Assembly: GCA_029959195.1 (NCBI GenBank)
Contig: CP114122.1
Coordinates: forward strand, 1,178,001-1,242,000
Source of the DNA: Dictyophora rubrovolvata
Lineage: Eukaryota > Basidiomycota > Agaricomycetes > Phallales > Phallaceae
Length of the DNA: 64,000 nucleotides
Direction of reading: 5' to 3'
Shown here: positions 16,614-63,554 of the stretch, in pieces
Numbering within the stretch: position 1 is the stretch's first letter
How the letters are laid out: every line of letters begins with the position of its first letter
Notes under the pieces: model-generated
The model's database searches: none
What the model was told of the DNA's origin: nothing
Seen by the model: only the letters and a program-made list of their open reading frames with translations
Program-made: the position numbers and the translations under genes

Positions 16614-17516
16614 TCAAGAGGCAGGCCCAGCTTGCTTCGGATCCGTGCTACCATTAAAAATCAAATCGAGTGCATTGATACCAACTTCCCATGCGAATTC
16701 GAGGGCAGTAAATAGTTGATCGTCAAATATGCCCAATGCGGAAGCATTAGCCCAAAGCCCCCAAATTTTCTGAGCGTTGGTCAACAGTTCTTCACGGGAG
16801 TACTTGTGCGCTTGTCTTTTCGACCATTCTATTACGGGCTCTGTGGGGCTGTCTTCGATTGGAAGGAGTTCTTCGAAAATAACACTAGTGTGTCGCATGT
16901 AGAGAAAGTTCAGAATGGGACGAAACGTTTCTGGTGAAGGAAGGGAAAGATAGACGACCGGAAGAGTGAATTGGGGTTCAGCATTCTCAGGCGGGACTGC
17001 TGGGGAGAATGGGAGGAGGGGTAGATGCGCGCAGCCGGTAGACATAATCAAGGCATGACAGGGGTAAAGAGTGACCATGTTTCTGTTCTGTTTCGAACGG
17101 ATGGCGAGAACGTGAGTAGGGGGCTCTAGGCTGGTATCGAATTGGACTAGCAATTCGTTAGGTAACGGACCGTCGGGAAGAATGGCCTGTGTTGCTCTTG
17201 TGGCCTCGTGAAGTCTTGAGTGAAAGAAAAAACAGGGGGGTAAAGATGAGCGGGGACAGCAGATAGCAAAGAATAACAGGTTAATCTCCCACCTTGGACC
17301 AATTTCTTCCTTCAACATGTTAAGAATGTAGCCGAGGGGAATACCTGCCAACACTGGGTCAACAGCTGCTATGGTTTCGGGGGTAATTGGGCGAAACGCT
17401 GGACGGGCAAGACATCTCGGGAGGGAGAACTGTGTGTTGGAGCGAGAAGAGGGCGACTGCGCACAGTACAGCTCAATAGACGTCGTCTCTGGAGTTTTTG
17501 ACTCGGGGACTGCCAT
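16614..17516 (-). CDS. Clp1-like protein 1 (clampless family)
   Basis: Exons 17293-17516 and 16614-17214, 274 aa. The family is recognised by LARPAFRPITPETIAAVDP followed by LAGIPLGYI, then PPTHVLAI, YPCHALIMSTGCAHLPLLPF, LPVVYLSLPSPETF, LYMRHTSVIFEELLPI and WGLWANASALGIFDDQLFTALEFAWEV. Clp1 of Coprinopsis cinerea is needed for clamp-cell formation downstream of the A mating-type homeodomain complex, and Ustilago Clp1 controls the dikaryotic cell cycle. The function of this shorter copy is unknown. The intron (17215-17292) is 78 nt, a multiple of three with no stop, so retention would also give an open protein with a 26-residue insert; the shared phase-2 intron position in copies 2 and 3 argues that it is spliced. 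Confidence 0.85.
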   Translation of the reverse strand: MAVPESKTPETTSIELYCAQSPSSRSNTQFSLPRCLARPAFRPITPETIAAVDPVLAGIPLGYILNMLKEEIGPRWEINLLFFAICCPRSSLPPCFFFHSRLHEATRATQAILPDGPLPNELLVQFDTSLEPPTHVLAIRSKQNRNMVTLYPCHALIMSTGCAHLPLLPFSPAVPPENAEPQFTLPVVYLSLPSPETFRPILNFLYMRHTSVIFEELLPIEDSPTEPVIEWSKRQAHKYSREELLTNAQKIWGLWANASALGIFDDQLFTALEFAWEVGINALDLIFNGSTDPKQAGPAS

Positions 17517-18253
17517 GAGGTCATTGTCGAGTGGCTTGCGAATGGTGGCTCGCGAGATAAGACGGCGACGTGAGCTGGGACAAAAAGCGCTCCGGGCTGC
17601 CCAAAGCGATGAGCAAAGGTACGAAGTGTTTTTTTAAAGAAGATCGATGAGAAGAAGGAGGTGATATGATATGCTGATGGGAAAACCTGGACAAGCAAGG
17701 GCGAGAGCCTTTTTATTCCTAGTGCAGGTGAAGAAAGGTTTCACCAAGAGACAAAGGAGCGGAACCCGCCGCTGAGTCAGCCTGTGGTCTATTGTGGATT
17801 TCGGCTATGTCACATGTCACATGTCACACATCTACGCCGTGGCTATACCAAGATCGAGTCGTAGAGAATAATACTAGTTCAGAGCAATTCTCTTGTTCTT
17901 ATCTCAAAAAAAAACCACTCGTGAATGCGATTCACAACTATTGTAATTCCATACCACTAAGTAGCCTTCCCGGAATATTCTAGACAATGACCATCCGAGT
18001 TCTTTCACCAGACAAATAACAAAAGAGCAATGAAAGAGCAGTACGTTAACACCGGCACATGCCAAATATTTCTTTCTTCGTCACCAAAGAACAAGCTTTC
18101 GTCCCGGACTCCGAGTTACCCTTACATAAACTATTCCTTCGGAAACCAACCGCGCAACGCTCCGTGATTCAACAATCTAATGCCGGTCGCCGGTCAACGG
18201 TCACCAGCCGCAAAGAGGGACTTAGCTACTTAGTGCCTAATGCCTCATGCCTA
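17517..18253. other. Divergent intergenic region between Clp1-like gene 1 and the RnpA-like gene
   Basis: Holds the promoters of both genes. The clear feature is a tandem of three TGTCACA heptamers at 17808-17828, about 300 bp upstream of the Clp1 start. Pyrimidine-rich sequence (18260-18300) lies just after the RnpA-like start. No other gene is seen. Confidence 0.5.
17808..17828. promoter_or_regulatory. Three tandem TGTCACA heptamers upstream of Clp1-like gene 1
   Basis: Exact threefold repeat of TGTCACA, that is TGTGACA read toward the Clp1 gene. It contains the TGACA core bound by TALE-type homeodomain proteins, the class that includes basidiomycete HD1 mating proteins. The regulatory role is inference; the upstream regions of the other three Clp1 copies show only single TGACA matches, as expected by chance. 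Confidence 0.35.
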
Positions 18254-19255
18254 ATGCTGTTCGCCTTGTCTCGCCTTTTCCCCCTTCCTTCCTTCCTTTC
18301 TAACCTCCCAGTACTGGTGCGGCCAACATCCAGCCACTCCGCCACCGAGTATAGCAAACCTTCTTCTTCATGCTTGGAGCTTTCTCGCCTCCCTAAAGCA
18401 AATCGTTTCAAAAGTTTACGGGTAAGGTTTGATCTTGAAGAGATTCTCTGTGTCGTGTTTTCATTATGTGGATTTATATAGTATAAGCGCACTCTACCTG
18501 GACGGTGCGGACATCTGGCGTATGATCATAGCCATTCCAGAAAACCTGCTTTGAATGATTCCCATCCTCTTGCTTCGCTTACTCCCCAGCAGTTACTCCG
18601 TAGTGCTCCACATTATCGTTGCGCATTGTTCACCCTCCATTGTTACCCTTTCGATGTCCTCAAAAAGTTCGATTACCCAGAGTACATGTTATCATACAAA
18701 CAGAAGGGTTACTCCAACGAGCTGCATCGTATCATGTCATCTGCCAATCCTCAAATGAAGATCGCTCCTCCTCCTTATGCATTTCCCAATGATATCTGTA
18801 GAGAGAAGGAGTCGCTTCCGATGCCTATCATGGTTTTGTTACCCAGACACATCCATAAAACTGGATTCGTACGGTCCAAAATCAAAACTCGCTTGAAAGA
18901 GGCCCTCAAGCTAGTCGTCGTTCGAGGAGCCATTCAGTCAAAATCGAGCAATGGCATCGATTTCATTTCTTCCGAAGCGACCTCCTCTTCTCCCGTCCCG
19001 TTGGACGAACAGCTTATTCTCAAAGGTTGGACATGAGCTATCTCGTCATTCACAGCGTGTTTATATTAAATATATATCTCATTAGATTGGGTATATACCT
19101 TCCGACCCAGCGCAGAAATGTATCTGGCACCATGGCCAACATTGCTCAACGAAATCCGACAAGCACTAGAAACGGCCAAACAAATTGGTTTTGCGATGCA
19201 CAAGAGAAATGCGCGAGGAACTTCAAAGAAGTCATTTCGCCCACTGATGAACTAA
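18254..19255 (+). CDS. Mitochondrial-targeted RnpA-like protein (possible RNase P protein component)
   Basis: Exons 18254-18421, 18482-19025 and 19086-19255, 293 aa. The N terminus MLFALSRLFPLPSFLSNLPV is a good mitochondrial presequence (Arg, Ser, Leu, no acids for about 30 residues). The central segment HIHKTGFVRSKIKTRLKEAL resembles the RNR helix of bacterial RNase P protein RnpA (consensus near vRNriKRrLREa). After the last intron, DWVYTFRPSAEMYLAPWPTL then LLNEIRQALE resembles the RnpA C-terminal strand and helix (..RP.a....l..el..ll). About 130 residues between presequence and core are unique. Fungal mitochondria carry a bacterial-type RNase P RNA, so such a protein would make sense, but the assignment rests on motif similarity only. 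The start at 18254 is chosen because it creates the presequence. Confidence 0.6.
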
Positions 19256-19316
19256 GATGCATTATCCTATATCTCAACATGATCACTCGCTACGTATCAT
19301 GTACATTTCGACTAAT

Positions 19317-20287
19317 CTACGACGTCACCGCTAACTGCGGACTCAATGGTCTGCCTTTCTGGTGAGCCTTTTCAATGTCAGCAGCCCATAAAGCTGCTCC
19401 GACCGTGGAAGTGAGAGTGAAGAAAATGGTACCCATGGGGATAAGGTTCAACAAAACTGTGGCAGTCCCGAACCTGAGCCCCGACGATAAGCGTCGACTT
19501 GGAAGAATTATGTACCTAGTTCAAAAAACATATGCTTACCCTACGTAGCCACCACGACCCTTCACAACCTCTTCATGCTGTTGTTTTTCATTATACCTTT
19601 TCAATTGAAAATATCTCGCGTGAAAGAACGGTCCCGCTTTTGCACCTTGGGTTACCAGAAACAACGTTGTCCCAACAACAGGAATAAAATTTAAGGGAAG
19701 TAATATGATGTAATTCATCATCTGATGCAAAAGCGGCCTAATATTGTGTTGATATATATTAAGTAATAGTCAGTGACGAAGCTGATCGAATAAGATACTC
19801 ATACATACATGGAAGGAGGGCTGGTGAGTGTTTTTCCTAGTGCATTCGTCTCTTTGGACCCTCGTCCGGCTTTTAACTCTCTACCTTTACTAACCAGATT
19901 GTCTTGACCCTCACTGACAAGCGTTGCATCGAAAATGTCTATCAACGTTTCTTTGAGGGTGAAGTTCCTCGCCAGCAACATTGTTATTGTGGCAGATTCG
20001 GAAAGGACCAAACTAATTGCGTTGATGAAACCAAGAGGTCCGTTGAGCAGTGTCAATACAGCAGCTTGTGGAATATAGGTGACGAAAAACATCGTGATAG
20101 TAATAATTAATCCTAAAATTATCGTTGGCGTTATTCGAGACGCGATCATTGCATATAGATTTGGATGAGACAGGAGGTAATGAATCCCTTTGAGGGGATA
20201 GGTGTATGTTCGAGCGATAAGTGTTTCTCGACCAACTTGTACTGCATGGATAAGCCTGTTTTGTGCAATGGTTTTCATGGTGTCCAT
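19317..20287 (-). CDS. EI24/Lds-Rrt8-type multispanning membrane protein
   Basis: Exons 19809-20287, 19540-19737 and 19317-19497, 285 aa. YTYPLKGIHYLLSHPNLY followed by several hydrophobic stretches (IILGLIITITMFFVTYIPQA, GPLGFINAISLVLSESATI, YIILLPLNFIPVVGTTLF, VLLNLIPMGTIFFTLTSTVG) is the layout of fungal Rrt8/Lds1/Lds2 and EI24 proteins, which sit in lipid droplets, ER or spore wall. About four membrane segments are visible. DATLVSEGQDNLV after the third segment is the usual loop motif. Reading stays open upstream of the ATG at 20287, so a longer N terminus with another exon is possible. It is convergent with the RnpA-like gene, 61 bp apart. Confidence 0.72.
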
Positions 20288-20596
20288 GATCACTGTCGAA
20301 GACAGAAGTTGAGAAACAAAGCCTAAGGTTATGACGACATGGGCATCATATTCAAACGGTGACCCGGCGTTTCCGTTACGGAACCAATTCAGTCCACGAC
20401 GTATATATATTATGCGGATAAATTAGATTTTTTAATGCCCTATAAACAAAACTTCCTCAGAAAACAAAATTGCCTGTATAATCTAAATATGAGCATGAGT
20501 AAGCAAAGAAACATATGATATGTTCACTGACATTGAAATTGACCAAACACCGAAGCATTCCCAAGCGAAAAGGATAAAAATGGCGACCAATCTGAA
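20288..20596. other. Intergenic region, 309 bp
   Basis: Tandem minus-strand genes flank it. The 130 bp beside the EI24-like gene remain open in its frame and may be coding. The rest is AT-rich with no recognised signal. Confidence 0.4.
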
Positions 20597-21958
20597 TCAG
20601 CAATCATCTAGATCTAATGCGGCTATGTAATCGACTAGTTTACGACCGATTGTTTCGTGACCTATAAAGCCATTGCCATATCAGTCGCCGGCAAAATGAA
20701 ATAGCAAACAGAAGGCATATTAACCTTGGACAGTTGGATGTAATCCATCGCATGTTAACGTCCTATTTACCCAACCCTCCGTCGCAATATGATACAGTTT
20801 CGGATTACCTGGGCGAGATTGCCATTCTTTGGCCAACGCCTCCACCATACATTGGACATCCGGTTCGAAAACAGTCTTTCGTTTGGATGGTGCCGACGGA
20901 TCTGTAAAGAAACCGAAGGGAGACTGAAAAAGAAACATGATATTAAATTTGGGTCTTGGAGTTAACTCAGATTTTCTTACGATGACATGGATGCGCTTCA
21001 AAGCTGTAGAATATGCATCTCTCAAACGATTAAGGAAATCTCGATAGGTTTCTAGGAAATTATCCTTGGAGACATAGTAATTCTGATCATTGGAACCTGT
21101 CAAGTGAGAATAAGGACAAGGTATATCAGACCCATATACTCTAAGTATACCTATGGATATAAAGACGTCATGAGGAGCATCCCGCGACCGGGACTCCCAG
21201 CCGCCTTGACCACGTATCCCCTTCCAAAAAACATCGACCATTCCCTCCTCATAGTCAATCGATGTCAAGCAGAGTCCTAACATGACCCAACTTTTGAGCG
21301 AAACTCATTCATAAACACAACAAAACATACCTGGGTATGCCACCATTTCTAGTCGAGCATCTACACCATGAGACCGAAGAGTGCGTACGACAACTGAGCC
21401 AAATGACTGAAAGGTACCATAGGGAAGAACAAGTCCTCTAAACGGAGGTGAATATCCTGAAACCTGCGATGCGCCAATAAATAGCATGGGCCAAGGAATC
21501 GACGACCCTTGTGCTTGTGGAGATTTGATGAAAATGGGTTGGCCGTCTGCCTTGAAACAATACACTGTGTTTATATATCCCCTCTGGGCAATAATAAAAG
21601 CTGTGATACACACTGGAGTAATCGAGAGAATTTGGAGAGTTGCTCCCCAGTCGCATAGCATAATTATGACTTCTCGTAAATCATCTCCTGTATACCCAGG
21701 CCCTCCCTGATCAGAGGGTGTAATCTTTAACATCCGCTTACCCGCGACAGGTAGTGTTTTCACGAGTGATTGCGACCCATAGTGCCATAAAATATTATGA
21801 TAGTTATTACGCGACGCAGTAAGTTCACCCAATTCGACATCCAGATAGCGGCTTGCTGTCTGGAAGATTAAAGAGGAACCGCACCAACTCGTACTGTAGC
21901 GTTCGTCACCATCCAAGTTCCAACGTCCATGAAACTGTACGCGGGTCTTCATATCCAT
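20597..21958 (-). CDS. SGNH-hydrolase (CE2-like esterase), copy 1
   Basis: Six exons: 21614-21958, 21331-21550, 21151-21276, 20981-21096, 20725-20923 and 20597-20661, 356 aa. An N-terminal beta-sandwich (VQFHGRWNLDGDERYSTSWCG onward) precedes the SGNH domain, the layout of family-2 carbohydrate esterases. The nucleophile block reads FIGASQVSGYSP where copy 2 has VGDSLVSGF, so the usual Asp of GDS is Ala but the Ser is kept. Block III is GSNDQ and the Asp/His block is CDGLHPT. No signal peptide is visible, so it is probably intracellular. Substrate unknown. Copy 2 at 29909-31390 is clearly paralogous, with several introns at equivalent points. Confidence 0.82.
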
Positions 21959-22144
21959 AAAAAACAGACAAAACAGATGAAATCGTGCCGAAGACAAAAG
22001 CTCAGTCAGGCCCGACCCGGGACCGGCTTGACCATCGATTCAGCAGAAATCATATTGTTAATTAAGCGCCCGTGTAACGTGTTTTTAGAATATGTAACGG
22101 TTATTATGTAAACGGAGTCTGTTTTAGCGTCACCTACTCAAGTT

Positions 22145-24885
22145 ATGCCTAAGAAACTTCTTGGAGGACTTTCTAAAACAAAAACGTTCAAGACAAAAAG
22201 TAGACAAGAAAAACGAAGAGAGGATGATAAAACTTTAGCTGAGCTGGAAAACGGCATTCAAACCTTTGTAGGTACGTTTTTTCAAAAGTGTAATTAATAA
22301 CGGGTGAATTGAGTTGCCCTTACAGGAACTTCATGACGGAACAACGGAATTCTCAGCATTACCTATATCAGAATCGACTAAGAAAGGTATATAAGTCATC
22401 ATTTCTATTATTTTGTTTTTTCCCGATTTTGAAATGGTACAGGTCTTAAAAAGGCGTTCTACAAGGACATGACGGATATCCAGGCTCGAAGTATTCCTAT
22501 CTCTTTGAAAGGTCGCGATGTCTTAGGTGCGGCGCGGACTGGGAGTGGAAAAACCTTGGCCTTTCTCATCCCAGTATTGGAGCTCTTATACCGGCGCAAA
22601 TGGGGCCCTCAAGATGGTTTAGGAGCACTGATAATCTCTCCGACTCGTGAGCTGGTATGTCTTCAGTTGCGGGTGATAATATTTGTCTTAGATGTGAATT
22701 AGGCAATGCAAATATTTGAGGTGCTGCGGCGAATAGGCTGTTATCATAGTTTTTCGGCAGGTTTAGTGATCGGTGGAAACGACTTGAGCGAGGAAAGCGC
22801 TAGATTAATGCGAATGAATATACTTGTGGCCACTCCAGGACGCTTATTACAACATATGGACCAAACAAGTGGATTTGAGTGCGGGAATCTGCAGACACTA
22901 GGTATGTCTGCCTGTTATTATTATTCGTATCGCTCTTCTCACTTGTTAAACAGTGCTTGACGAGGCTGATCGTATACTCGATATGGGTTTTACACGAACA
23001 TTGAATGCAATCGTTGGACATTTGCCCCGAAACCGACAAACGCTCTTATTCTCAGCCACACAAACTGAGTCGGTACAAGATCTTGCACGACTTAGTCTAA
23101 AAGACCCAGAAAAAATCAATGTCAAAGAAGCTGGTTCATCTGTCGCCACCCCCAAAAACCTTGAGCAACATTATATGGTATGCGAATTACATCAAAAGCT
23201 TGATGTCCTTTATTCTTTCATCAGAACACACTTGAAAATAAAAGCTATTGTTTTCATGTCAAGTGGGAAGCAAGTGAGTAATTTTTGCTTACTGTTTTGT
23301 TCTCGTCATTTATGAAAAAAATTGGTAGGTTCGCTTCGTATTTGAAACTTTCTGCAAGCTGCAACCTGGTATCCCACTGTTACACCTTCACGGAAAGCAA
23401 AAGCAATCGAAACGGCTGGCGGTCTATAAACGTTTTCTATCGTCTTCCCATTCAATACTCTTTGCCACAGATATTGCTGCTCGCGGCTTAGACTTTCCTT
23501 CAGTTGATTGGGTCATTCAATTAGATGCACCAGAAGACGCAGATACATATATTCACCGTGTTGGCCGAACCGCGCGATATGAGAGCGCAGGCAAAGGATT
23601 ACTACTCCTGTTACCCAGCGAGGAAGAAGGGACGATGAAAGTCCTCAAAGCTAAAGGGATTGAAATTCAGCGTATTAAAGCCAAACAAAGCAAGATCTCC
23701 AGTATTACCCACCAATTACAAAGTTTTGCATTCAAAGACCCCGAACTCAAGTATCTTGGACAAAAAGTAAGCACACTTACGTACGGTTTGTCGCCTGATT
23801 GCGCTAATTTTGAAAAGGCTTTTGTTTCTTACATGAAATCTGTATATCTACAAAAAGATAAATCGATCTTCAAATTGGATCAACTGCCTGCAGAAAAGTT
23901 CGCTGAATCGCTGGGTTTACCTGGAGCGCCTAAAATTAAGTTCCTGGACAAAGGAGTAACACAGAAGAAGAAAAATGCACCATTAGCGGTTCAACAACTA
24001 TCTAGTAGTGCTGAGAGTGGGGGCGAAGATCCTTCTTCTGAGGACGATGACACAAAACCCGACACGAGGCAACATAAACCGGTAGGGCAGTTATGTCACT
24101 TTCGGTTTGGAGGTTCTGACTATAGACCAGCAAAATGCTGTTCGAACGAAATACGATCGCATGTTCGAAAGAAAAAATCAAAATATATTCTCAGAACATT
24201 ACAATAAACTAATCGATTACTCCGATGATGATTCCAATGACCACGAGGAAGAGGACTTCATTACGCTAAAGCGCGCGGACCACGAACTTGAAGATACTGC
24301 CATGCCGCCACCTGCACTTGATGAGCCTGTATCGAAACGGAAACAGAAAGAAATGGGGTCTAAGAAGGCAATGTTAAAATATAAAGGCGCGGGGACGAAG
24401 TTGGTCTTTGATGACGAAGGAAATCCTCATCAAGTATATGAACTTCAAGACGACAAAGAGTTCCACGAGGGGGATGCCTTGGGCGAGGGAAGGAAATTTG
24501 CTGAAAGTGAACGAGAACGTTTAAAGGAAGCAGACATCCTTGATAAGGAAGTGGCGAGAGCTAAAAAGCGAGAGAGAAAGAGGAAACGGAAAGAACATGA
24601 GCGCGAGGTAAAAATATACTATTTTGCTTTTTGCTTTTTCTAAAAAATCTGTTCCCTTAGGCCAATGATAGAGGAGGTTCTGCTGGTCTTGCCGTTCCAG
24701 GGGACGACTACGATGATGGATATGTGTCCCCGGAGTTTGACCTCCCTCCAAGTGAAGCCGAGTCGTCCGAAGCAGAACCCTCTGCTCCAGCTGCGAAACG
24801 ACAGAAAAAGGATAAAAAACTTTCGGACGCTTTAGAGCTTGAGGAGGAAGAAGCGTTGGCGTTACGTATGCTACGAAAAAAGTAA
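22145..24885 (+). CDS. DBP4: DEAD-box RNA helicase Dbp4/DDX10
   Basis: Nine exons: 22145-22267, 22326-22386, 22443-22654, 22703-22901, 22954-23273, 23329-23766, 23818-24081, 24131-24607 and 24661-24885, 772 aa. Helicase motifs in order: AARTGSGKT (I), PTREL (Ia), TPGRLL (Ib), LDEADRIL (II), FSATQT (III), [21 protein letters not shown] (V) and HRVGRTAR (VI). The C-terminal block [21 protein letters not shown] is specific to Dbp4, which acts in 18S rRNA production through U14 snoRNA release. The tail is acidic and then basic ([11 protein letters not shown]). The intron at 24082-24130 was placed to restore frame and uses an accag acceptor. Divergent from SGNH copy 1, 186 bp apart. Confidence 0.93.
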
Positions 24886-24988
24886 TTTTCATCCGCGTCG
24901 AATGCAAGTCGAATGTAAACTTGAATATTCTGTTGCTGTGACCTATGTGACCAACCGCGTTCTGCATTTCCTTTTTGTGAAACTGTGA

Positions 24989-29908: not shown

Positions 29909-31390
29909 ATGGCTCTGCAGCCATCAGAAGAAACGAAAGCACCAAGTACACCTGACATATCTCCCGAAGTTCAATTTCACGGTCGCTGGGACTTGTCTGG
30001 GGAAGATCGATATATCACGCACTGGTGCGGATCGTCCCTGTGCTTCCAGACTACAAGTCGTTCTATCACGGTAGAGTTAGGTGGCTTAACAGTGTCAAGA
30101 AATAATTTCCACAATGTTCTGTGGAGATTCGGCTCTCAGGCTGTCACCCGGACCGCTCTCGTCAAAGGCAAACGATCTCTAAAACTTACTGCTTTAGCTG
30201 ATCCCATCGAATCTGGCGGTGGTGAGAGACTTCGAGACGTAACAATAATGTTGTGTGATTGGGGTGCAAAACTACAAATAATAGACATAATAACCGTACG
30301 TGATTATGTTTTGAACCTTGTTAGACGATTTGTTGTACCCCCTCTTGCTACTTAATCAATCTTCAGACAGATGCCAGACCCATTGTTGCACCTGCTGTTG
30401 CTTCTCCGCCAAGACCTATGCTCTTCGTCGGCGATTCGCTTGTATCAGGCTTTACCCCTTTATACCGAGGCCTCGTTCTCCCTCACGGCAGCTATCAAGC
30501 ATTTGGTTCCATTGCTGTTCGCACTTTAAGGGCCCATGGAGTCGACGCCCGATTAGAAATGGTGGCGTATCCAGGCACGTACTTCATACCTAACCTTTTG
30601 CAGGAATTGATAATAACGCTTATCTAGGTATATGCTTAAAAACCGTCGACGCACCGGCTGTTGTTCCAACTCATGATGGTGAGGAAGACATTGATTGGAA
30701 GGGAATGGAGGATGTCTTTTGGGAAGGTATGGCGGGTAAAGGAGGATGGGAGGAACGATCCAAATATACCCCTCATGACATATTCATTTGCATTGGTGAG
30801 TCGCCGGTGTATTGCCATTTATACACCACTACTGGACACTAGGATTCTTCCTTTAACCTTTTCTTTTCTTTTTAAGGAACAAACGATCAAGGGTGGGGTG
30901 GAGATAAGAATGAATTCTTAGAACATTACGCTACATTCCTAACACGATTGAGAGATAGCCATTCGAATGAGCTCAAGAGAATTCACGTCCTTGTTCGTAT
31001 TTTCGTTTCTTCACCGACTTCTCAATTGTTGACTCAGCTCAGTCACCGTTCGGTTCATTCCATGATCCAACTGATCCCAATGCGAGGAAGGCTGTGTATG
31101 AACCAGATGTGCAACACATGGTGAAACAATTGGCTAAAACTTGGGCTGATGCCAATTCTAGTGGTGTAAAATTGTACCATATTCCAACTGATGGATGGAT
31201 ACACAAAGAGCTCACCTGTGATGGCACTCATCCAACGAGTGAAGGTAAGTTTTTTTTTAATCACTACACTCCATATCTTATATAATATCGTCTAGGGCAT
31301 GAAGCTATCGGGACTAAATTGATTGAATATATGGATGCTTTGGGTCTTGCGGGTGTTCCTGGTATACATTATACGGGGTCGATTCCATGA
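29909..31390 (+). CDS. SGNH-hydrolase (CE2-like esterase), copy 2
   Basis: Six exons: 29909-30295, 30367-30574, 30628-30795, 30877-30992, 31043-31244 and 31296-31390, 391 aa. Same layout as copy 1: an N-terminal beta-sandwich (VQFHGRWDLSGEDRYITHWCG) and an SGNH domain with VGDSLVSGF (Ser nucleophile), GTNDQGWGGD (oxyanion Asn) and CDGTHPTSEG (catalytic Asp and His). All four blocks are intact, so it should be an active esterase, probably on an acetylated sugar or lipid. No signal peptide is seen. The intron 30575-30627 appears to start with GC (gcacgt); no GT donor keeps the frame, and copy 1 has a normal GT at the same place. Confidence 0.85.
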
Positions 31391-31529
31391 CTTTATACAC
31401 GCTGTCGGTCTGTTTGGGAAACTTTCGATTGGTGTAATGAAATTTGCGATTAATAAAGTGCCTGTAAGAATATCGAATGTAATTTTGCCTTATGTCTTTG
31501 TAAAGTATTGCGCGAGTGTTTAGCTACGT

Positions 31530-34360: not shown

Positions 34361-34534
34361 GTGAATCGGAGCTTCAATAATATGATCTGCGTGAATTGGA
34401 TTATCTGTCATAAAAAAAGTGATTCAATGTTGCATTTGGTGGAACCTGTCGAAGCTCTCGTTTCGAATGTTGGGATTGGAGTTACAAAAAGCACATTTCA
34501 TGTCTCGGGGCGGTTGTTGCAGTGATACGTCGTT

Positions 34535-34620
34535 GGCGGCCTGGCGTAATGGCAACGCGTCTGACTTCGATTGTCAGCAGCGTAATCAGAAGATTGCAGG
34601 TTCGAGTCCTGCGGTCGTCA
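34535..34620 (+). tRNA. tRNA-Arg with 14 nt intron, anticodon most likely TCG
   Basis: Cloverleaf folds well: acceptor GGCGGCC with GGTCGTC (two G-U pairs), D stem GCG/CGC, anticodon stem TCTGA/TCAGA, T arm GCAGG-TTCGAGT-CCTGC, discriminator A at 34620. The anticodon loop carries 14 extra bases (34571-34584). Removing them after position 37, the eukaryotic rule, leaves loop CTTCGAA, giving anticodon TCG (Arg, codon CGA); mature length is 72 nt. A shifted excision would give TCT, also Arg. Confidence 0.9.
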
Positions 34621-34951
34621 TCTTTTTTTTTTTCTTTGGCTGCTAGGATTTTTCTGATTCATAGCTATGTATCGGGTACGGAGAACCAATGCTCAAACAT
34701 AACCTTTATATCTGTTCATTCCGACATATAAAGTACAAAAAATTGCATTTAGGCAGAGTGAAGTGTGGTAATATAATCAATGAAAGGAGACAGTATGAGC
34801 TTCCGTCATACCCATGAAGAATGTCAAAAGCAGCGAAGAAAGGGTGCCAGTAGTACTCAGTACATACGCGTTGTCCATTGTGGTAAAAGAAAAAGGGAAG
34901 GCAGCATATGCGGGCGGGCGTGAAGCATACAATTCCAACACCAAGTCAGGA
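34621..34951. other. Intergenic region after the tRNA, 331 bp
   Basis: Apart from the Pol III terminator, no gene is seen. The part from 34780 is the 3' flank of the minus-strand Clp1-like gene 2. Confidence 0.45.
34622..34633 (+). terminator. RNA polymerase III T-run terminator
   Basis: An uninterrupted run of about ten T begins two bases after the tRNA discriminator base, the standard Pol III stop signal. Confidence 0.85.
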
Positions 34952-43280: not shown

Positions 43281-44313
43281 ATGGTCTCAGCCTCAGTCGC
43301 CTCATTCCCCGCCGTCAATGATGAGAACGTGAGCTTGACTTCTTCTGATAGAGTTGGAAGAATCCATAACACGCATACGCGCCGGCAGCGTTTTCGTCTC
43401 CAAAATTCTAGTCTAGGTCAATCGCGCTGGCACGCGACCCGCGAGGCGGCACGTCGCACCAGTCATGCAGCGCCGATTGTTGCCCCAACTCGTGTCTTTG
43501 ACCTTACATCCATGATGGAAGCAGTTGACCTAAATGAGCAACGTCCAAAGTCTACCTCGTTGCCCAAACAATTGCGCCGCCCTGCTTTCCGCAAGGTTAA
43601 CCCAGCTGCTATTGCCGCCATCGAACCCGACCTTTCCAAAATTTCCGTAGACTTCATTCAAAAGAAAATCCATGATATCGGCGAAGAGTAAGCGTTTTTC
43701 TCAACTCACTTTATCAGTTGAATTTAAACTAAATATCGACTATCATAGTATGTATTATATGCTTCAGCAGACTTCTGCCAAATGCCCTAAAGGCCGCCTT
43801 CCTCGCGAAGTTGAAGTCGTAGTCAACGACAACTCCGGAAGCCCTCCCACTCACGTTTTGGCCGTGTATACCCAGGGAACTGGTCTCCAAAAACAACATA
43901 TTTCCCTATACCCTATCCACGCACTCGTCCTTGTAGCCACCTGTGCTAACCTCCCACCACTATCGTACTCTAAACCCGCTATTCCGGAATTTCCTGGTAG
44001 TACGGTCACCTTACCTGTTATCCCGCTTTCAATTCCCAGTCCCGAGATGTTTGCGGCTGTAATTCACTATCTCTATACCCTTCGCACAGATACCTTATTG
44101 AGAGCACTGCTCCCGATTCCAGCACACACCACCATCCCGTCACCCGAGCAGTTGACTAGGGAGCTTTCCACTTATCCACCTGGAACATTACATCCCTACA
44201 TGCATCGCGTGCATGGTCTGTGGATGAATGTGACTGCACTTGGAATATTTGACGAAAACTTGTGGCGTACCATGGAGGCTGCTTGGGAAGTCCTCCATGG
44301 TGCGTTAGCTTGA
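43281..44313 (+). CDS. Clp1-like protein 3 (clampless family)
   Basis: Exons 43281-43687 and 43749-44313, 323 aa. Core motifs: LRRPAFRKVNPAAIAAIEPD with LSKISVDFIQKK, then PPTHVLAVYTQGTG, YPIHALVLVATCANLPPL, LPVIPLSIPSPEMFAAVIHY, LYTLRTDTLLRALLPIPAH and VHGLWMNVTALGIFDENLWR followed by AAWEVLHGALA. The N-terminal 80 residues are Ser/Arg-rich. The 61 nt intron has the same phase 2 and position as in copies 1 and 2. The ATG at 43281 is the first in-frame ATG of the open frame. The C terminus ends immediately after the conserved block, with no tail, in contrast to copy 4. Confidence 0.87.
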
Positions 44314-45877: not shown

Positions 45878-45923
45878 ATGTTCTACCCTAGTCCCAGTCC
45901 CAGCCACGCCGCACTCCCCTCCT

Positions 45924-45954
<31 letters not shown>

Positions 45955-46703
45955 GTCAACCTCCTCCAAGTCTTGTTCTTCTTCCACACCTACACCTACA
46001 CCTACCCCATCTACCCCTGTCTATTATACCTCCTTCAGAGCATCGTCTGCGACATCCAAGTCTGCTTCTCACTTTGCTTCCGCCCCTCGTGCACCTTCCA
46101 AAGACTTTCTTCCTTTGCCCTCTGTAGCAGAATACCGTAGTATGAATCACTAGTTACCAAGTTATTCTTTCTTCGTCTAACCAATCCTTCTCATAACCAG
46201 GCGGTTTATCCACACCAACTGCTTCTCCTGCCCTTTCTTCGAGACGCACAACTAGTTCCATCAGTCCTGCTAATATCAAATTTAACCCCATCCTGACATC
46301 CCCGAGTTCCTCATCACGATTTAATTTTTCGAACCCCAATGCATCTACAAATACATATTCTCACGACCTTGCCTTTCCCTCCGGCCAAGTGTCCAGTTAC
46401 ATCCCAGTTTTGTGCGGTCCTCTCAACTTGCTCATTTATATACAAAACCCATCCAGTCAAATGTCATGCCGTGATTTTCTTTTGGCAATCTCGATGGCTC
46501 TGGCCCAGCCTATCAACCCTTATACTGATGACGAATGGCTCCAGGTGGGACCTCACAATCAACAATCTATCACTAGTGTGTATCACAAGCGGGTGGCAAA
46601 GTACCCGGACCCCTACCTTCGCAAGATAGACTTCCTCTTAGAGCAGACTCACTTTAGAGGACTTCGCTTTGCCTATAACGCTTGGGCATTGATCGCCGAA
46701 TAA
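45878..46703 (+). CDS. DUF6699-like basidiomycete protein
   Basis: Exons 45878-46139 and 46201-46703, 254 aa. The N-terminal half is low complexity: a run of about 13 Ser from a TCC-type triplet repeat, then TPTPTPTPST. The folded C-terminal 120 residues (SYIPVLCGPLNLLIYIQNPS, CRDFLLAISMALAQPINPY, YHKRVAKYP, RKIDFLLEQTHFRGLRF) have the layout of DUF6699, a basidiomycete domain of unknown function that typically ends with a D.L...T.FRGL motif. A TATA box lies 50 bp upstream. The match to DUF6699 is from pattern memory, moderate. Confidence 0.7.
45905..45956 (+). repeat. TCC trinucleotide repeat coding for a poly-Ser run
   Basis: Mostly CTC/TCC triplets inside the DUF6699-like reading frame, length-variable by replication slippage in such genes. 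Confidence 0.7.
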
Positions 46704-54700: not shown

Positions 54701-55456
54701 AACCAAATTAAAAAAATTAAAATTATATATAAACTCACCTGTACGACCAATATGGACAACCGGTGATCGCAAAGCACGCTTGGGAGGTGAAGCGTCTGAT
54801 TCGTCTTCTTCATCCTCGGGTTGATCGTCCCAAAAACATTCTTTATCCGTATTAATAGTTCCTTTCACTCTTCCAGTTTCCAGCTCCAAAATAATCATAC
54901 TAGTTTCTTTGCTCCCAACAAACAGTCGGTCCTCATCCCCGGGAAAACTGAACGGGGACAATTCAACTATCTGCTGTGTACTGAGCGGTAGGCGTTGAAG
55001 AGTGTCTGATGGAGAAGCCATTGGTGGTAAAACATAAATATCACCGGACTGAGGTTCAATAATGAAGAACTCTCGCTCGGGGTCGTGAGCCGAGTGCTGT
55101 GTCCGGATAAGTGAGTTGAAGGTCACGGGTACATCGGCATCGGGGTCGTTAGACATGGACCATAACAGCTGGCCTGTGGTTCTATTCACACCATGTAATT
55201 TTCCGTCAACGGAGGCCAGCAGCACAGTATCTAACAACCGCATCCCATGAAGAGCTGGATCGATATTTGGACCATCGAGGGCGAGCTGTTCTTCTTTCGG
55301 ACTGGTAAATCGATATCCAGGTTCCCAAAGGTTACTTCTTTTTTGTCGAATTTCTGTTGATACTGCTGATACTTTGTCAGGAATGCTGCGTTCTGCAGCA
55401 TGGATACAAGCGACTAGCAGCGCAGCAAAGACAAGATACTGTATGCTCATGACCAT
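51793..55456 (-). CDS. IRE1: Unfolded-protein sensor kinase/endoribonuclease IRE1
   Basis: Six exons: 54739-55456, 54419-54662, 53248-54362, 52358-53189, 52036-52303 and 51793-51978, 1120 aa. A signal peptide (IQYLVFAALLVACIHA) leads a lumenal domain of about 460 residues, then a membrane helix (WGVLGFTLLLGITIAKLF). The cytosolic linker contains a strongly basic patch (GPRRRRRGKKKK). Kinase motifs: FGSHGTVV, AVKRLL, HRDIKPQNIL, ISDFGLCKKL and APEILRG. The KEN RNase domain has KYDGRSVQDLLRALRNKKHH, keeping the Tyr, Arg, Asn and His needed for RNA cleavage. It senses ER stress and splices the HAC1-type mRNA. A Ser-rich insert follows the APE motif. Confidence 0.96.
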
Positions 55457-55918
55457 TATGACATGCGAGTGAACATTTCAAGGGTTTATAAAATAGTTTC
55501 TCCAGATGAGATTGTAGAGAGGAAGGGGGGAAGAGGAAAAGAATGATGTACGGTCAAGTGGAAGGGAAGCTGAGGCCACAGACGACCTCCGGGCGCTAAT
55601 TCTGAGCCTGTGCGCAAAGTTAACCTTCTCTCGTGGACGCTGGCTGTTTCGGAGGCAGCTCCCTTTCGGTAGTAACCTAACGGTGTCTTTTGAGATAAAA
55701 TTACTATGATCACCCATCTCATTAAATGAAATGAGCAAGATACTCTGATTGGATAAGTTTCAATGAGTTCATTTGGGTCAACGTGCACCAATAATAAAGA
55801 GTTGCAAGTGACCGTGAATTCTACTAGGGTCATATAGAATGTCATGGAATCTGCAGATCTTCTTATAATAATGGGAGATGCTGTTGCCAGATAAAACACC
55901 GCGCTCAAGAGACACCTA
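55457..55918. other. Intergenic region upstream of IRE1, 462 bp
   Basis: IRE1 leader/promoter and 3' flank of ADE8. A 140-codon minus-strand frame (55486-55908) has no recognisable domain and ends before the IRE1 start; treated as leader. Confidence 0.45.
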
Positions 55919-56671
55919 TCATGTTGAAATGTTAATGTAGACCGGTACAGAGTCTTCTAATACTTTTTTCGTAGCTGCAACAATAATTGCCCACTCCGTT
56001 TCATGTAGTCTTCTCTCGAAATCCTCTTTGGGCTCTCCATCACGGAAATCAATAGTCCGAACAAGAATGGGCTCTCCACGATCGACCTCTTTGACGACTT
56101 TGTGAACCATGACACCAGTCTCTCTGATTTCTCCCTTTTGAAAAGCCTCAAACGCCCTACCAACAGCGCTGGCGCCGCCGAATGCGCCTGGCAGAGCGGG
56201 ATGAAGATTAATGACAGGAATAGAACGCGCCTCCGAGGTAGTGCTGGTATCATTATTATCCCGCGATTCTCCACGTTTGCCCTCCATGACATCCAAAAAG
56301 CGTTCGCTCAAGACATGCATCCATCCGGCCAAAACCACCAAATCAGGCGACCTTGCCCGAACCCTCCAAGCCACCTCCTCATCGTAATCCTCCCTGGTCT
56401 TGTCAGGATGTGATTTCAAATACGGCTGAAGGGCGAGATAGTCCGTTGGTATCGGTGGAGAAGCCCGCGCTGCGCGGGTCAAGCCATAGGCAGCCTTGCG
56501 ATTCGAGAAAACGAGACAGAGGGCTGTCTCTGGTATTTCACCCGAGGCACATGCATCGATTAAAGCTTGAAGGTTTGTCCCTAATTAAGCATGTGAATAG
56601 TCGAAAGTAGTAAAACAGAATTTTATTTCACCTGATCCTGAGATCAGGACGACAATATTTCGACGGGCCAT
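55919..56671 (-). CDS. ADE8: Phosphoribosylglycinamide formyltransferase (GART)
   Basis: Exons 56632-56671 and 55919-56580, 233 aa. MARRNIVVLISGSGTNLQAL, the phosphate-binding start; LVVLAGWMHVLSERFL; INLHPALPGAFGG, which holds the catalytic Asn and His; and GVMVHKVVKEVDRGEPILV, which holds the catalytic Asp region, identify a GAR transformylase using 10-formyl-tetrahydrofolate in de novo purine synthesis. The monofunctional form fits fungi (yeast Ade8). The intron of 51 nt splits the SGSG/TNLQ loop. PNP1 follows upstream on the same strand with 293 bp between. Confidence 0.94.
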
Positions 56672-56964
56672 TAAGCGAAAATATAGGGAGGCGGCTTGCT
56701 GGGTGTGGACACGTGTGGTTTTCGCAGAATTAATAAACAATTGTCTTCCCGTACAACTCAAGTACAACTCAAATAGTCAATTTTGAGCGTCGGACACTAC
56801 TAGTATGCATTTAATTGTGTTTAGTTACTACCTTGAATTGGAGCGAAGAGGAAGGCAACTGTTTTGTACTTTGTCAAATATTTTTTGGACTTCGAGTCAC
56901 GATGACCATAATATTATTATATTCGTGGGGAGAGTACAGAGTTAGTCAAGAAGTGATAAGTACA

Positions 56965-58195
56965 TTATTTCTGGTCAGATATCAATTCCGCAATTTTCTC
57001 TACTAGAGTTTTCATGACGTCCGCCTTTTCCCTTCCCATCTGTAAAACCTCCTCATGAGAAACCACATACTCGGTCTTTTTCTTCAGTTCTTTCCCGGCG
57101 ATCTCACAGCATTTGATAAGGTTTCGAAACTCCAAAGGAAAACAACATACATACCTCCGCCTCAAATTCATCCCTGACGCTATCATACGTTTCAGGGATG
57201 ACAACCTTATTGGTCACAAGACTCAAAACAATGAGGTCGAGACCCATCTCTCTGGCAGCAAGAACTTCGGGAATGGTGCTCATGCCAACAACATCAGCAC
57301 CGGCAAGACGGAGTAATCGTCCTTCAGCAGGTGTTTCGTATGAGGGTCCCGAAACCCATGCATATACCCCTTCGGCAAGTGCCTCCCTCGGTAATTTGAG
57401 CTCATGGGCAGCTTTAAAAGCAAGTTTTCGAAAATTTCTTGAGTATGCATTGGAAAGAGGCAAAAACCGTGGCAGCTGCGGATCTGTTTGTGGTCCTATT
57501 AAGGGGTTGAAGCCGCACAAATTTGGTAGAGCTAGATGGTCTTGGATTACGACGACTGTGGTTTTTTTAGAGCTCATGAAAATTCATAGTTGAATGGGGT
57601 TTAGTTTTGAAGGCTCACTTGTTCCAATATTTAGACTTTGATTCAAAGCTCCTGAGGCATTTGTAACTTTGATGATGCGATATCAATAAAGAGGTGACCA
57701 TAAAATATGAGGGAACCTTACTAAGAACCCGTTGGACGCCTAGCTTGGCCATTACCCGAATGGGGTATACGACACTCGCCATTGTATGACCTTCATAAGG
57801 ATGAAACTTGCCTTTATACATACCTTAAACTTTACAGGGTATTAAAATGAAAAAGACACACTCGTCCTAGCATCGCAACAACGGGAATCCGCTTGGAGGA
57901 GGAGGAGCCGAGGTAGCCGAAAGCTAAGGAACTCTTATGTCCGGGTACTGACGAGCAAAGTAAGTATAGGCTTCGACTCGGATATGGACTTGCTAAACGA
58001 TGTGCTCTTACCAGTGCTTTGTCCAAAACCAGGAAGGGAGGCATATGGAACCAAGACTGATTCTTGTAGATTGGTGACTAAAGTATGTAAACCTGATCCG
58101 CAGACAACGCCGAGTACTGGGCGCATTAGATTCTCGGGAACATAGTCTCGGAGGACATCGACTGTTGAAGCGAAAGAAGGCTGTTGGGAGGACAT
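56965..58195 (-). CDS. PNP1: Purine nucleoside phosphorylase
   Basis: Six exons: 58012-58195, 57862-57947, 57722-57806, 57619-57666, 57155-57555 and 56965-57102, 313 aa. GVVCGSGLHTL, GRFHPYEGHTM, ITNASGALNQSLNIG, VVIQDHLALPNLCGFNPLIG, EGVYAWVSGPSYETPAE and ADVVGMSTIPEVLAAREMGL are the trimeric PNP signatures; the active-site Glu in YETPAE and the Asn in LVTNKV are present. It splits inosine and guanosine for purine salvage. The acceptor of the last intron was chosen to give a normal 52 nt length. Confidence 0.94.
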
Positions 58196-58852
58196 GACAC
58201 GTCGACACAGGGTATTGACTCTTTTGAGATCGATGCCGTACTCAGTGTGTCACATTTTTGTGACTTTATAGCACTAGTAGTAGTTCTGATGTTCTAGCTC
58301 GGTTGAAGTGAGGCCGTCATTCTTGACATTGAGTTATCAATTCGGTGCTGCGCGTAGTTGACAGCGCATACAAAAGTGGGCTTACAGAATAATGATCAAC
58401 ACCGGCGACACTCCCCGAGTTGTTCCCGAGATGTCATGATGTATGCACTTGAGGACGAGTCTGCAATTTTAATTATTAGTTTCGCGTTATAGGCTGAATC
58501 TGTTGATGTTCCTTGTCTCTGGCGAGACACATCCTCGTCTGTGTGTTGATGTCTCTACGTGTTCTCGGAACTCATTTGCAGCCTCATTTCAAAGTTGGCG
58601 GATGGATTCGGAGGCGGCGATCGGTGACACGGCAGATGGCTTCAAGATGGCTTCGTGCATACTGTAGTAGACGCGGCTTCGTCTTCTCCACCCACGATCA
58701 TTTCATTTCGTTCTATTCTCCACAAAGACGTCGTCGATATTGACATTACCATCTCGTCCATCGACGTACTAATTATTCCTTTCCTTTTTCCCTTTCATTC
58801 AAGTCCCCACTGTCCCCTTTATGACCACTACCACCACCACCACCCTTTCAGA
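58196..58852. other. Divergent promoter region, 657 bp
   Basis: Between PNP1 and the next gene. The right part (58745-58850) is pyrimidine-rich and contains an upstream ATG at 58821 (described separately). Confidence 0.45.
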
Positions 58853-58868
58853 ATGGACAAGATACTGA
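58821..58868 (+). promoter_or_regulatory. Overlapping upstream open reading frame
   Basis: ATG at 58821 opens a 15-codon frame (MTTTTTTTLSEWTRY) whose stop lies 13 bases inside the main coding sequence starting at 58853. If in the leader, it would lower translation of the main frame. Confidence 0.4.
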
Positions 58869-60985
58869 GCAAGTCAAAGAGCATGATATTCGGACGAAAG
58901 AAATCCAAGGATGACAATACATTGAGAGACTCGGAGAGTTTTTACGACCTCGACGATTATTCATTTTCTTCCGCATCTCCCAGAATACAGACTCCAACTG
59001 TGGGGTTGAAAACAAAGTGCGCCACTGATATTATTCTCTCAGTGACATAAAACTTTAATTCTCTGGACAGGAATCCATTACCTACCAAGCCATTTGCTCA
59101 ACTCGCCCATTCAAATTCGCCCCATGCTCCTGGACCTCCTCCAGGAGAAAGACACAATTTTTACAACTCCAGCTTCAATCCGTACACTTCCCGACGAGAC
59201 ACCCAGCCTCTTCTACAGCTCAGACAAAAATCTCTTCCGCTAGGTCGCAGCTCATCGACATCTGAAACAAAACCACCGATACTCAGCTTAAATGCACATG
59301 CAGGGGAACGTTACAGACTAGAGGTCAACTTTGACAGGGGACGAACAGCTTCCACCGCTCCATCTCATGGTCCCCCACTTCGCAATCTCGGTCACGATGC
59401 TTCAAACCAATTTCTGACAAACACGTCTAAAAGCGAGAGTTCGGACAATTCAAGAGGCGGTATGAAAGATACGAAACCGACCGCTAGAGCGAGTTCGTGT
59501 CAGCTTCCGGACAAGTCTTTTCGCGGTTGTGCCATTTCAGCACCAATTACAAGTGGCTTACTTTCTCTTGAAGCTAAATTCGACCCTTCTACCAACCGGA
59601 GTAACGTTCAGGCCTTTCGTTCGTCCGCAGATAATGTTTTAACAAAGCATATACCCACTTCTTCAGCCACTTTTTCCAATCGGCCTGGTGTTTTCGACGG
59701 TAAAACCCAAGAGCAAAACGTTCCCTGCGAAACTGGACCGCCAGGAGGCGGGTTTTCGCCCTTGAGAGGAAGGAGGTCGTTGAACTCTTTCAATAATACT
59801 ACAAGTCAAACGTCTAATTCTGAAGTCAGCAAAACTTCTCCGAATAACGAGAAACGTAACTTGTCATCATTGTTCCCTAGGTCCTCCGCCACTCAAGGTT
59901 CAACAACATCTGGCTTTTCGTCATCATCGGACACACATTACGGGTCTTTGTCTAATTGGGTTCGGTATGAATCTCAGAATAATGTACGAGGCGAATGTGT
60001 CATGTCGAAAATGACTTCATCTCCATCTCTCGATAACGACAACGATAATGGTACCGGTCGTAGACCGTTTCACTCTAGAGCAGCTTCTGACAATCTCACC
60101 CAGCTCAACCCTGTTCAGCCGTTATCACTTCGCTCTCAGCCCAAGATGCATAAAAAGAAGCTCGGTGGATTTCCGGACACTTTTCCAGAAGGGAACGAGA
60201 AACAAAATCCATCTCCGGATGTTTACGGCTCCTCTTCAGTTCTTCAAGCTAGCGCGTCGTTACCAACACCACCTACATCGACCACAACGCTCTCCTTTAT
60301 CGCAGGTCAGCTCGACATTCCTGAGTTCGATGTCGACAAAGGAGAAAAATCGCGGCTTGGTTTCAGCACCTTTGAAGACAATGACAAATGCGAATACACC
60401 AAAAACCCGCAACTAACTCGTTCAGATCTAGAATCGGCTCTTAAAATCCAGGACATAAAGCTTAGCGAGCTATGTGAACGAGTAAGCAATCTGACCGAGC
60501 AGCTAAACGAGGAAATTACGAGCAAAAAACTATTTGAAAGGAGGATATCGCATCTGGAAAATGAGATTAGAGGGTTGAGATGGATTATTAGCGAGAAAGA
60601 CCGAGGCAGGCATACAGGGAAGGGATCTGAGGTAATAACTGTTGATTCCGATTCGAGGGGTTCTTCTTGTCAAATCGCCAGCGGCGATTCGAGCTCGAGG
60701 TATGAAGCGAGCAGGACTAGTAACACTACTGAGAAGGATACTACCGAAAAAGGTAAAGACAAGGACCAGGATGAAGGTCGTAAGATAGAATCGAGCGCTG
60801 GATCGAGGATGACATTGCAGCACGATCCTAATGGGTTCAATGTCACTTTGAAGAGCACCCAGAACCGTCGGAAGAGATTTGGGTTAGCGTTGGATCTTAG
60901 TCCGGACTCGACGACCGTTGGGTCGGCGTCGCTTCGTTCGTCTTTGCAACCCCGGTTAGTACGCCATCATGCAGGAAAAGTTTGA
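58853..60985 (+). CDS. Unrecognised Ser-rich protein with C-terminal coiled coil
   Basis: Exons 58853-59016 and 59071-60985, 692 aa. It starts MDKILSKSKSMIFGRKKSKD, a basic amphipathic segment that could bind membranes. Most of the protein is Ser/Asn/Pro-rich and disordered. Residues about 530-580 form a clear heptad coiled coil (LESALKIQDIKLSELCERV, then LTEQLNEEITSKKLFERRI and LENEIRGLRWII). The tail is basic and polar. No enzyme motif. I do not recognise the family. Spacing and intron size are typical. Confidence 0.75.
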
Positions 60986-61471
60986 GAAAGTCATGTATTA
61001 ATAAAGAAACAAAGAACATTGATAATAAAAACAATTATTTTTTTTGGTCTGAAGAGTTTTAATCAATAACTCGTCCGTGTTGGCGACGTCGACGACGATC
61101 GATATCGAAAAAAGGAAAATGCTCCCGCCATTTTGAGCGCCTGTTAAAGCCGTGTACGTGTGTGTGTACGCGTATGTACGCGACTAGCCGTGTAGTCGTG
61201 AGATTTTTGAGACGTGTTTCTCGCCCATCCGGATGACACCGAATTCTGCAATTTGGCTATCTTGCCATTTCGAGTACAAGGAAGGGATTGGCTAGTTATT
61301 TAAGGAAAACCCTGCGCGTCGTTGACTCGATTTCAGGACAAAGGGCCCATACCTAGCCTGCAAGACGACGGTACTGGTAGCTTGGTTAACAACCAAGTTT
61401 CGAGAGACTGCTTTTGAGTTGGTTTATTTGGGAGTAACTCTCGAGGTCTGGAAAGTCTCAAGCTCGATAAT
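60986..61471. other. Intergenic region upstream of Clp1-like gene 4, 486 bp
   Basis: Contains a CpG-rich stretch with repeated TACG/GTACGCG units (61150-61185). No other signal seen. Confidence 0.45.
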
Positions 61472-63554
61472 ATGGATACCCCAACAACATCTGCACCACA
61501 AACACCGAAGATGTGCTCGCCGGATCTCTCGTTCAACGCGGATACGAATCTGCAATCGAGTTCATCCCCTACCTCCGAGTCGACCACTGCAGCAACCACA
61601 GACAGCGTTTCTACTTCTCCAGCTTCAAAGGTCTCTTTGACTTCCACATCCGACTCTTTTCTGTCAGATCCCTTTTTGAACTCGAGCCCGAACTCAAAAA
61701 CTTCTGTATCAGATGACGGATTAGATTCCATACTATCCGAGTCATCCAAGCCTGATTTCAAAACAACTAGTAGCAGCGAGCCCGAAACAGAGAACGTTCA
61801 AGTTCTCACAAGGGACGTTTCACAAAATATCAACCAGAAGGCAACAGCCTCGGCACCATCTACCCCACCATCATCATCGTCTCCTTCATCCTCGCCATGG
61901 TCAACGTCCTCGCGTTCCTCCCTGTCAAATATAAGTCCCTCAAGCGCACCATCCCATGCTCATTCACCCCAGCGATCTGGTTTTATGGCACTCACATCTC
62001 CACCCTCCCCTTCGCCATCAACCTCAAGTGCAAATGCAAATGCAAACCCGACACGTCTCCTTCTTCCCCGCGTGCTCGCCAAACCACCGTTCAAACCTGT
62101 TCTACCCGAGGTCATTTCAGTATTGGACACCGATCTGGAGAGTGTCCCGCTTCCTTACATTGTGAACACGTTGAGACGACTCGGACCGCGCATGATGACC
62201 GCACTTGCTCGTACTAGTGCATCAATTCCGGCTCTTCTTAACGTGCCCGCTACCAGTGCCAATGCTAGTTCCACAAACGAGAAAACGGCGAAATCAACAC
62301 TGACGCTCCCACACGAGCTTGTTGTTACGGTTTCGCTTGAATCTGAAAGGGATAAAGGAAGTTTATGGGCTCATGACTCCGACGCTGGTGAAAAAGATAT
62401 TGACGTGGACTTTGACACTCTTCCGACGCATTTGTTAGCGGTTTATGCAAGGTCTTCTAAGACTAGTAATGCCGCCGCCGATAGCAGTCACCAATCCAGT
62501 GGTAATACTAACAATCAACGGCGGAAGGTGACACTTTTCCCGACACATGGAATTATTCTTGCAGCGCATTGTGCGTATCTACCCGCTTTGCCCCCCGGAA
62601 GGAAAGTGACGAGCACAATAACAGCAGATGGAAGACGTAAGAAAAAAAGAGATATGAAAAGGCATTTTGGCGTTGATGTTCCCGAGTCGATTCCTGAATC
62701 TCAATCGGAGTTCAACATTGATCACGACGGACTTGGATCGTCGACTCGGAGTCACCAGCATGGTGATGATAAGCAAGAGATGATGCCAAGTTCGAGTGGT
62801 TTAAATAAGAATGCTACGCATACAGAAGTTACTCTTCCTGTTGTGCCGCTCTGTATTCCGTCTCCTGGAACGTTTCCTATTCTTCAGGCTTACCTGTACA
62901 CCAAACGTACGGATAGATTGCTAGCTGTGCTCATACCAGCTATCCCGTCCTTTTCTAGTGCAACGAACGAGGGCTCTTCGGGTCTTAATAGTCATGTAGT
63001 GTCCGAAACCTCAACATCAACATTTGCATCTTCGCCTGCAGATTTGTCCAGACAGCTGGCGATGACTTTTACACCCAACATCCTCGTGGCTGCTACGTTG
63101 CGCACACATGAATTATGGGCTAATGTCGTTGCTTTAGGAATATTCGATGACAAGTACGTCCGATTTTTGTGAGATCTATGTTGGGGCTGAAGGACTTCTT
63201 TTTTTTTTTTGTGATAGTTTGTGGAATGTGATTAGTTATTCCTGGAAAGTTCTCGTGGGCGCGTTGGAAGTTGTACAAATGAAGATGAGGGGTCCAGCGA
63301 AATCGGTGGTGCCGCAGGTTCAGGTTCAGGTAGGACCGGGATCTTTAGCCAGAAACGTTCGGCTGGGACAAAGTTCTTCGAGTCATGTGTCGCAAAATTT
63401 GCCGATGTCACCTCATACTCGTAATACTCGTTCAGGGGATGATCAGTCGGGACGTCTCTCGCCGCTGTCAACGCCCTCATTGCCATCGTCTTCTGAGGAG
63501 TGCCCTCAAAGGACGCTTAGAGAAAAAGACCTGAAACGTGACGAGCAGGGTTAA
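61472..63554 (+). CDS. Clp1-like protein 4, long form (probable Clp1 orthologue)
   Basis: Exons 61472-63153 and 63218-63554, 672 aa. A Ser/Thr/Pro-rich N terminus of about 190 residues is followed by LPRVLAKPPFKPVLPEVISV, LDTDLESVPLPYIVNTLRRL, THLLAVYARSSKTS, LFPTHGIILAAHCAYLPALP, LPVVPLCIPSPGTFPILQAY, LYTKRTDRLLAVLIPAIP and HELWANVVALGIFDDNLWNV. Length and extensions are closest to the known long Clp1 proteins (Ustilago Clp1 is about 640 aa). Unlike copies 1-3, the first intron position is uninterrupted, and the single intron (64 nt, phase 2) lies in the last block after GIFDD. A 90-residue polar tail follows. Confidence 0.88.

Follow-up and report, generated by a model that had tools for sequence, protein, structure and literature searches.

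Introduction

The clampless1 gene (clp1) encodes a regulator of clamp and dikaryon development, and its conservation is confined to basidiomycetes (PMC3360767). In Ustilago maydis, the Clp1 protein physically binds bW and Rbf1 and thereby inhibits both; it lifts the block on the cell cycle, and Cib1 stabilises it (PMC6918084). The b-binding sequence of Ustilago is said to occur in clp1, whose U. maydis product bears the accession XP_758585 (PMC2916880). In mushroom-forming species, the clp1 homologue X183_03369 of Pleurotus eryngii rises on transformation with compatible mating-type genes (PMC10100773), and likewise the clp1 homologue of Lentinula edodes rises after pheromone treatment (PMC7288658). 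These statements, and those cited to the same sources further below, are taken from extracts of the papers. The present analysis concerns a stretch of 64,000 nucleotides from the basidiomycete Dictyophora rubrovolvata (contig CP114122.1, positions 1,178,001 to 1,242,000 of the forward strand), called the window throughout, which carries four related genes, here named A, B, C and D. On the basis of core motifs and size range, their family is probably that of Clp1.

A to D are old and intact paralogues that form one gene family of four. The new point, absent from the preliminary description of this DNA and the most informative feature of the family, is a predicted BTB/POZ-like fold. In the reading that we favour and hold to be probable, A to D arose long ago by local duplication within one fungal family, most likely Clp1, and would encode divergent BTB/POZ-like adaptors that pair and dock on sexual-pathway transcription factors.

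Four diverged paralogues in the window

The exon-intron models of A to D were made by eye from the DNA and were then spliced and translated (Table 1; positions throughout are those of the window). Their limits are identical to those of the preliminary description, which had also placed the genes on both strands and outside a simple tandem array. This arrangement stands, as A and B lie on the minus strand, C and D lie on the plus strand, and other genes are found in between. The list given there of core motifs common to all four is loose, since B deviates at several places (LPILPMCLPNLRTF, ALGIS) and both A and B are without the 'LYtkRtd' form.

The kinship of the genes is evident in several comparisons. 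Over 225 gap-free core columns the four proteins are 33-41% identical, with 42 columns invariant. A, B and C match each other by BLASTP with expect (E) values of 8e-40 to 1e-50. The matches of D to these three are piecewise (E 4e-8 to 2e-24) because of the long inserts of D, which has in addition a long low-complexity N-terminal part. A profile built from the four proteins recovers their own seven open reading frame (ORF) pieces with E values no worse than 1.1e-40; the 2,015 stop-to-stop stretches searched in the window contain no further match below E 2.4.

A, B and C have in common an intron, identical in alignment position and in phase (phase 2), which precedes the conserved second half of the gene. 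This intron supports common descent and argues against recent copying. D is without it and has a single intron of 64 nucleotides nearer its C-terminal end. In a maximum-likelihood tree of the four, the branches are long (0.64-0.88 substitutions per site) and the one internal branch unites B and C with 83% bootstrap. The synonymous divergence (dS) was not computable by NG86 for any of the six gene pairs.

Downstream of A, a tblastn search with C matches positions 16071-15859 of the minus strand with 29.6 bits and E 0.006-0.007, across four stops. The match scores above the best of 84 reversed segments (23.5) and above the best of 30 shuffles (28.9). When the same region was aligned as DNA to each of the four coding sequences, it did not rise above 60 shuffles. 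The segment 15859-16071 is a possible decayed copy of a Clp1-like gene, and it is not counted as a fifth copy.

A predicted BTB/POZ-like fold

The structure of C exon 2 was predicted with AlphaFold2 from an alignment (A1) with the other three paralogues, and the model reached a predicted local distance difference test (pLDDT) score of 86.3 and a predicted template modelling (pTM) score of 0.79. Its core comprises strands at model residues 20-25, 35-40 and 51-56, a helix at 58-64, a strand at 84-94, and helices at 98-110 and 113-120. When this model was compared by Foldseek with 350,542 PDB chains, the BTB domain of Keap1 ranked first (E 0.035, probability 0.97, target-length TM score 0.50), and the BTB domain of SLX4 took ranks two and three (E 0.057 and 0.13). 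Likewise, among predicted viral proteins in BFVD, seven of the ten top rows are named BTB or BTB/POZ, the best with E 0.017.

A second model was made for gene A, translated across the intron, which is in frame; its alignment (A2) consists of exon fragments of the other paralogues. The order of strands and helices agrees between the models of A and C over their common part. The first six PDB ranks for the model of A are SPOP, KEAP1 and SLX4 entries, and of the 50 rows listed, 10 are BTB proteins. The rows from rank 7 onward include a kinase and globins.

The comparison of alignments by hhalign points in the same direction. A1 against a BTB alignment of five rows, four of them derived from PDB and one a consensus typed by hand, scores 36.5 at a probability of 78; the best of 200 column shuffles is 19.1, and reversed profiles score about 12. 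With the four PDB-derived rows only, the score is 28.5 (probability 33), and the best of 300 shuffles is 21.3 on the BTB side and 19.6 on the query side. When each paralogue is dropped in turn, the four-row score ranges from 23.1 to 32.4, as compared with the full-set shuffles only. The aligned stretch covers the second strand and the first helix of BTB (PIHALVLVATCA) and extends through the third helix (F..ll.yLYt). Among 200 ORFs of the window of at least 80 amino acids, those ranked highest against the five-row BTB profile belong to C (26.6), D (25.7) and A (21.6), and the fourth is a DUF6699 ORF (18.4). A BTB-like fold of the Clp1-like family is supported by prediction.

Keap1 and SPOP, both found among the structural neighbours, are Cul3 adaptors. 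Their presence there would suit the proposal that A to D are substrate adaptors of Cullin-3, in which the BTB-like domain would bind Cul3 and the rest of the protein would recruit cell-cycle or transcription factors for degradation. This proposal is improbable in our estimation. SLX4, for which we know of no role as a Cul3 adaptor, also stands in the top three structural matches, and the Pfam scans of the pieces revealed no recognised domain for substrate binding. Further, the inhibition of bW and Rbf1 by Clp1 through physical interaction, as the extract describes it, needs no degradation (PMC6918084).

Strength of the fold and of the Clp1 name

Several observations weigh against the reading of A to D as BTB/POZ-like Clp1 adaptors. 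In the three Foldseek searches no match reaches E 0.001 (best 0.035 in PDB and 0.017 in BFVD), and the superpositions of the C model on its first three PDB matches are loose, with root mean square deviations of 5.4-8.1. For A, the model is weak, with a pLDDT of 58.9, and includes the stretch encoded by the intron; its top six matches to BTB proteins have E values of 0.29-0.42 and probabilities of 0.11-0.51, and the two SPOP rows may have matched outside the BTB domain. The models of A and C are also not independent, as both come from the same four genes. In the ranking against the BTB profile, exon 2 of B is only 9th of 200 (16.7), so that B is not above background, and the match of D spans just 20 columns. 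A BTB match by Pfam is absent at E up to 10 for the six Clp1-like pieces, where most matches weaker than about 0.1 are removed by the HMMER filters. Seven matches at E up to 10 came from a profile search of PDB sequences, none of them to BTB.

The remaining outcomes of the same searches concern other families. The six pieces have no Pfam match above cut-off, and their three weak matches (E 0.034-0.11) are to unrelated families; the best match of the PDB sequence search is to a molecule named C3HR3_4r, with E 0.0003 over 27 positions. As BTB is missed both by Pfam and by the profile search of PDB sequences, the relation to BTB is a remote one. The family of A to D appears to be a divergent BTB/POZ lineage.

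The points on the same side that concern the name are two. The membership of A to D in Clp1 is plausible on core motifs and size range, but the name may be an error; A to D would then be a fungal family with a BTB-like fold and no relation to Clp1, a view which we regard as unlikely. A second attribution to Clp1 agrees with that of the preliminary description, though it was made in knowledge of the name, is not independent and is no test. The other point is the absence of the sequence GATGN9ACA, which we take to be the homeodomain (mating-type) operator of clp1, from the 1.5 kb upstream of each of A to D; this is a weak test, as the motif may differ in this species.

Within the window, GATGN9ACA is not enriched (10 matches against 8.9 expected); one match falls within the first exon of B, and another lies downstream of C at a distance of about 330 bases. 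A single scan of viral contigs yielded 20 pattern matches and a single scan of prokaryote contigs 32, none of them a relative by tblastn. A link between clp1 and BTB was not found in the literature searched, where the two papers listed as containing both words concern other subjects.

Genomic surroundings and duplication history

The Pfam scans covered 66 sequences of the window, fewer than all of its 119 ORFs. The neighbours named in this way include an FAD oxidoreductase, nucleoporin pieces, a DEAD-box/SPB4-like helicase, SLX1 pieces, ribosomal L28, CLN3, DUF6699, a mitochondrial calcium uniporter, GWT1, a protein kinase, a formyl transferase and a nucleoside phosphorylase. An NT-C2 piece is barely above the cut-off, and a SAP piece and others are below it. 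Neither a homeodomain nor a pheromone receptor is among the Pfam matches of these 66 sequences. The neighbours that Pfam could name give no support to a location of A to D within a mating-type region.

Two smaller features were recorded in the same region. A tRNA-Ser gene with anticodon cga is found at 34534-34622 on the plus strand and is separated from the 3' end of B by about 330 bases. A CTC trinucleotide repeat of about 18 copies (45914-45967), the sole tandem array reported at default score, lies ahead of the DUF6699 ORF at 46197-46703.

A pair of SGNH/GDSL-type hydrolase paralogues sits between A and B, and the identity of the two copies is 54-59% for most pieces and 44% for two others. 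When the ORFs of at least 60 amino acids were compared among themselves (E up to 1e-4), with antisense matches of the same hydrolase pairs set aside, this pair was the only repeated family besides A to D. Since both families are repeated, there has been more than one duplication in the region. The likeness to SGNH/GDSL hydrolases comes from a weak match of a piece of one paralogue to PF13472 (14.3 bits at E 0.059, where the cut-off is 32.9 bits) and from the motif FVGDSLVSGF, which was seen by eye in the other paralogue's DNA. The pair is a neighbour only and stands outside the Clp1-like family.

This second duplicated pair, inverted and in the same region, is what would be expected if the clustering came from an old segmental duplication that included the SGNH hydrolase. 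In that case only one of the four genes, perhaps C or D, would be the true Clp1 orthologue, and the others would be lineage-specific relatives with unrelated or minor roles; the proposal is compatible with a BTB-like fold and has, to our mind, a little short of an even chance. The papers, in the extracts available, mention one clp1 homologue, for example X183_03369 of Pleurotus eryngii (PMC10100773), and the long branches of the tree, with its single internal branch for B and C, also accord with it. However, A to D are all intact with conserved cores, which suggests that selection may have acted on all four. Moreover, a simple copy of a block made of A and a hydrolase predicts the pairing of A with C, whereas the tree favours B with C.

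Table 1. Positions of the four Clp1-like genes, the predicted fold and the hydrolase pair within the window
Feature	Positions	Strand	Exons and introns	Remarks
Gene A, Clp1-like, 274 amino acids	16614..17516	minus	exons 17516-17293, 17214-16614; 78-nucleotide phase-2 intron ahead of the BTB-like domain	splicing and translation, profile, DNA
Gene B, Clp1-like, 319 amino acids	34952..35967	minus	exons 35967-35600, 35543-34952; 56-nucleotide intron	intron alignment position and phase as in A
Gene C, Clp1-like, 323 amino acids	43281..44313	plus	exons 43281-43687, 43749-44313; 61-nucleotide intron	intron position and phase as in A and B
Gene D, Clp1-like, 672 amino acids	61472..63554	plus	exons 61472-63153, 63218-63554; 64-nucleotide intron	intron after GIFDD
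Predicted BTB/POZ-like core of C	43807..44109	plus		model residues 20-120
SGNH/GDSL-type hydrolase paralogue 1	20597..21958	minus		limits read by eye
SGNH/GDSL-type hydrolase paralogue 2	29909..31390	plus		inverted relative to paralogue 1; limits read by eye

Proposed mode of action and its significance

If A to D are old duplicates of Clp1 with a BTB/POZ-like fold, as we favour, each protein would have a short N-terminal segment that is conserved (LP..L..P.F), then the divergent BTB/POZ-like domain and, after it, C-terminal helices. Through this domain a protein may pair with itself or with its paralogues. The same domain may dock on sexual-pathway transcription factors and change their activity, a step which is modelled on the reported interaction of Ustilago Clp1 with bW and Rbf1; a BTB-like domain fits a protein that acts by binding transcription factors. 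We further infer that the four paralogues could form different pairings for different stages. A bolder form of this idea is that Clp1 is itself a highly diverged BTB/POZ protein, of which the four linked versions could pair combinatorially and so set the stages of dikaryon and fruit body; it is offered tentatively and is in our view rather doubtful. The suggestion of the preliminary description that the genes are subfunctionalised regulators of dikaryon or fruiting steps is a guess.

A BTB/POZ fold would explain how such a regulator grips other proteins. If the Clp1 name is true, the fold provides a concrete biochemical model, that of a dimerising docking platform, for a regulator so far described, in the extracts at hand, by genetics and partners, and it shows where a mutation would break the dimers or the partner contacts. 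If the name is wrong, A to D would still constitute a fungal BTB-like family for which Pfam has no matching model. Under the Clp1 name, the linkage of four paralogues would also have a practical side, as knockouts of a single 'clp1' gene in such species may mislead.

Comparison with known systems

The best structural neighbours of the C model are BTB/POZ domains, namely those of Keap1, SLX4 and pandoravirus BTB proteins, and the stretches HALVLVATCA and F..ll.yLYt align with the corresponding stretches of BTB. Unlike known BTB/POZ domains, the family has no Pfam BTB match, D carries long inserts and the C model has extra C-terminal helices. A further difference is that Pfam detected neither a zinc finger nor a kelch or MATH domain in the pieces scanned. 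As to Clp1, the core motifs and the size range are probably like those of the proteins of Coprinopsis cinerea, Ustilago maydis and Cryptococcus neoformans. In the extracts of the papers, Clp1 is one gene per species, whereas here there are four diverged copies in 47 kb.

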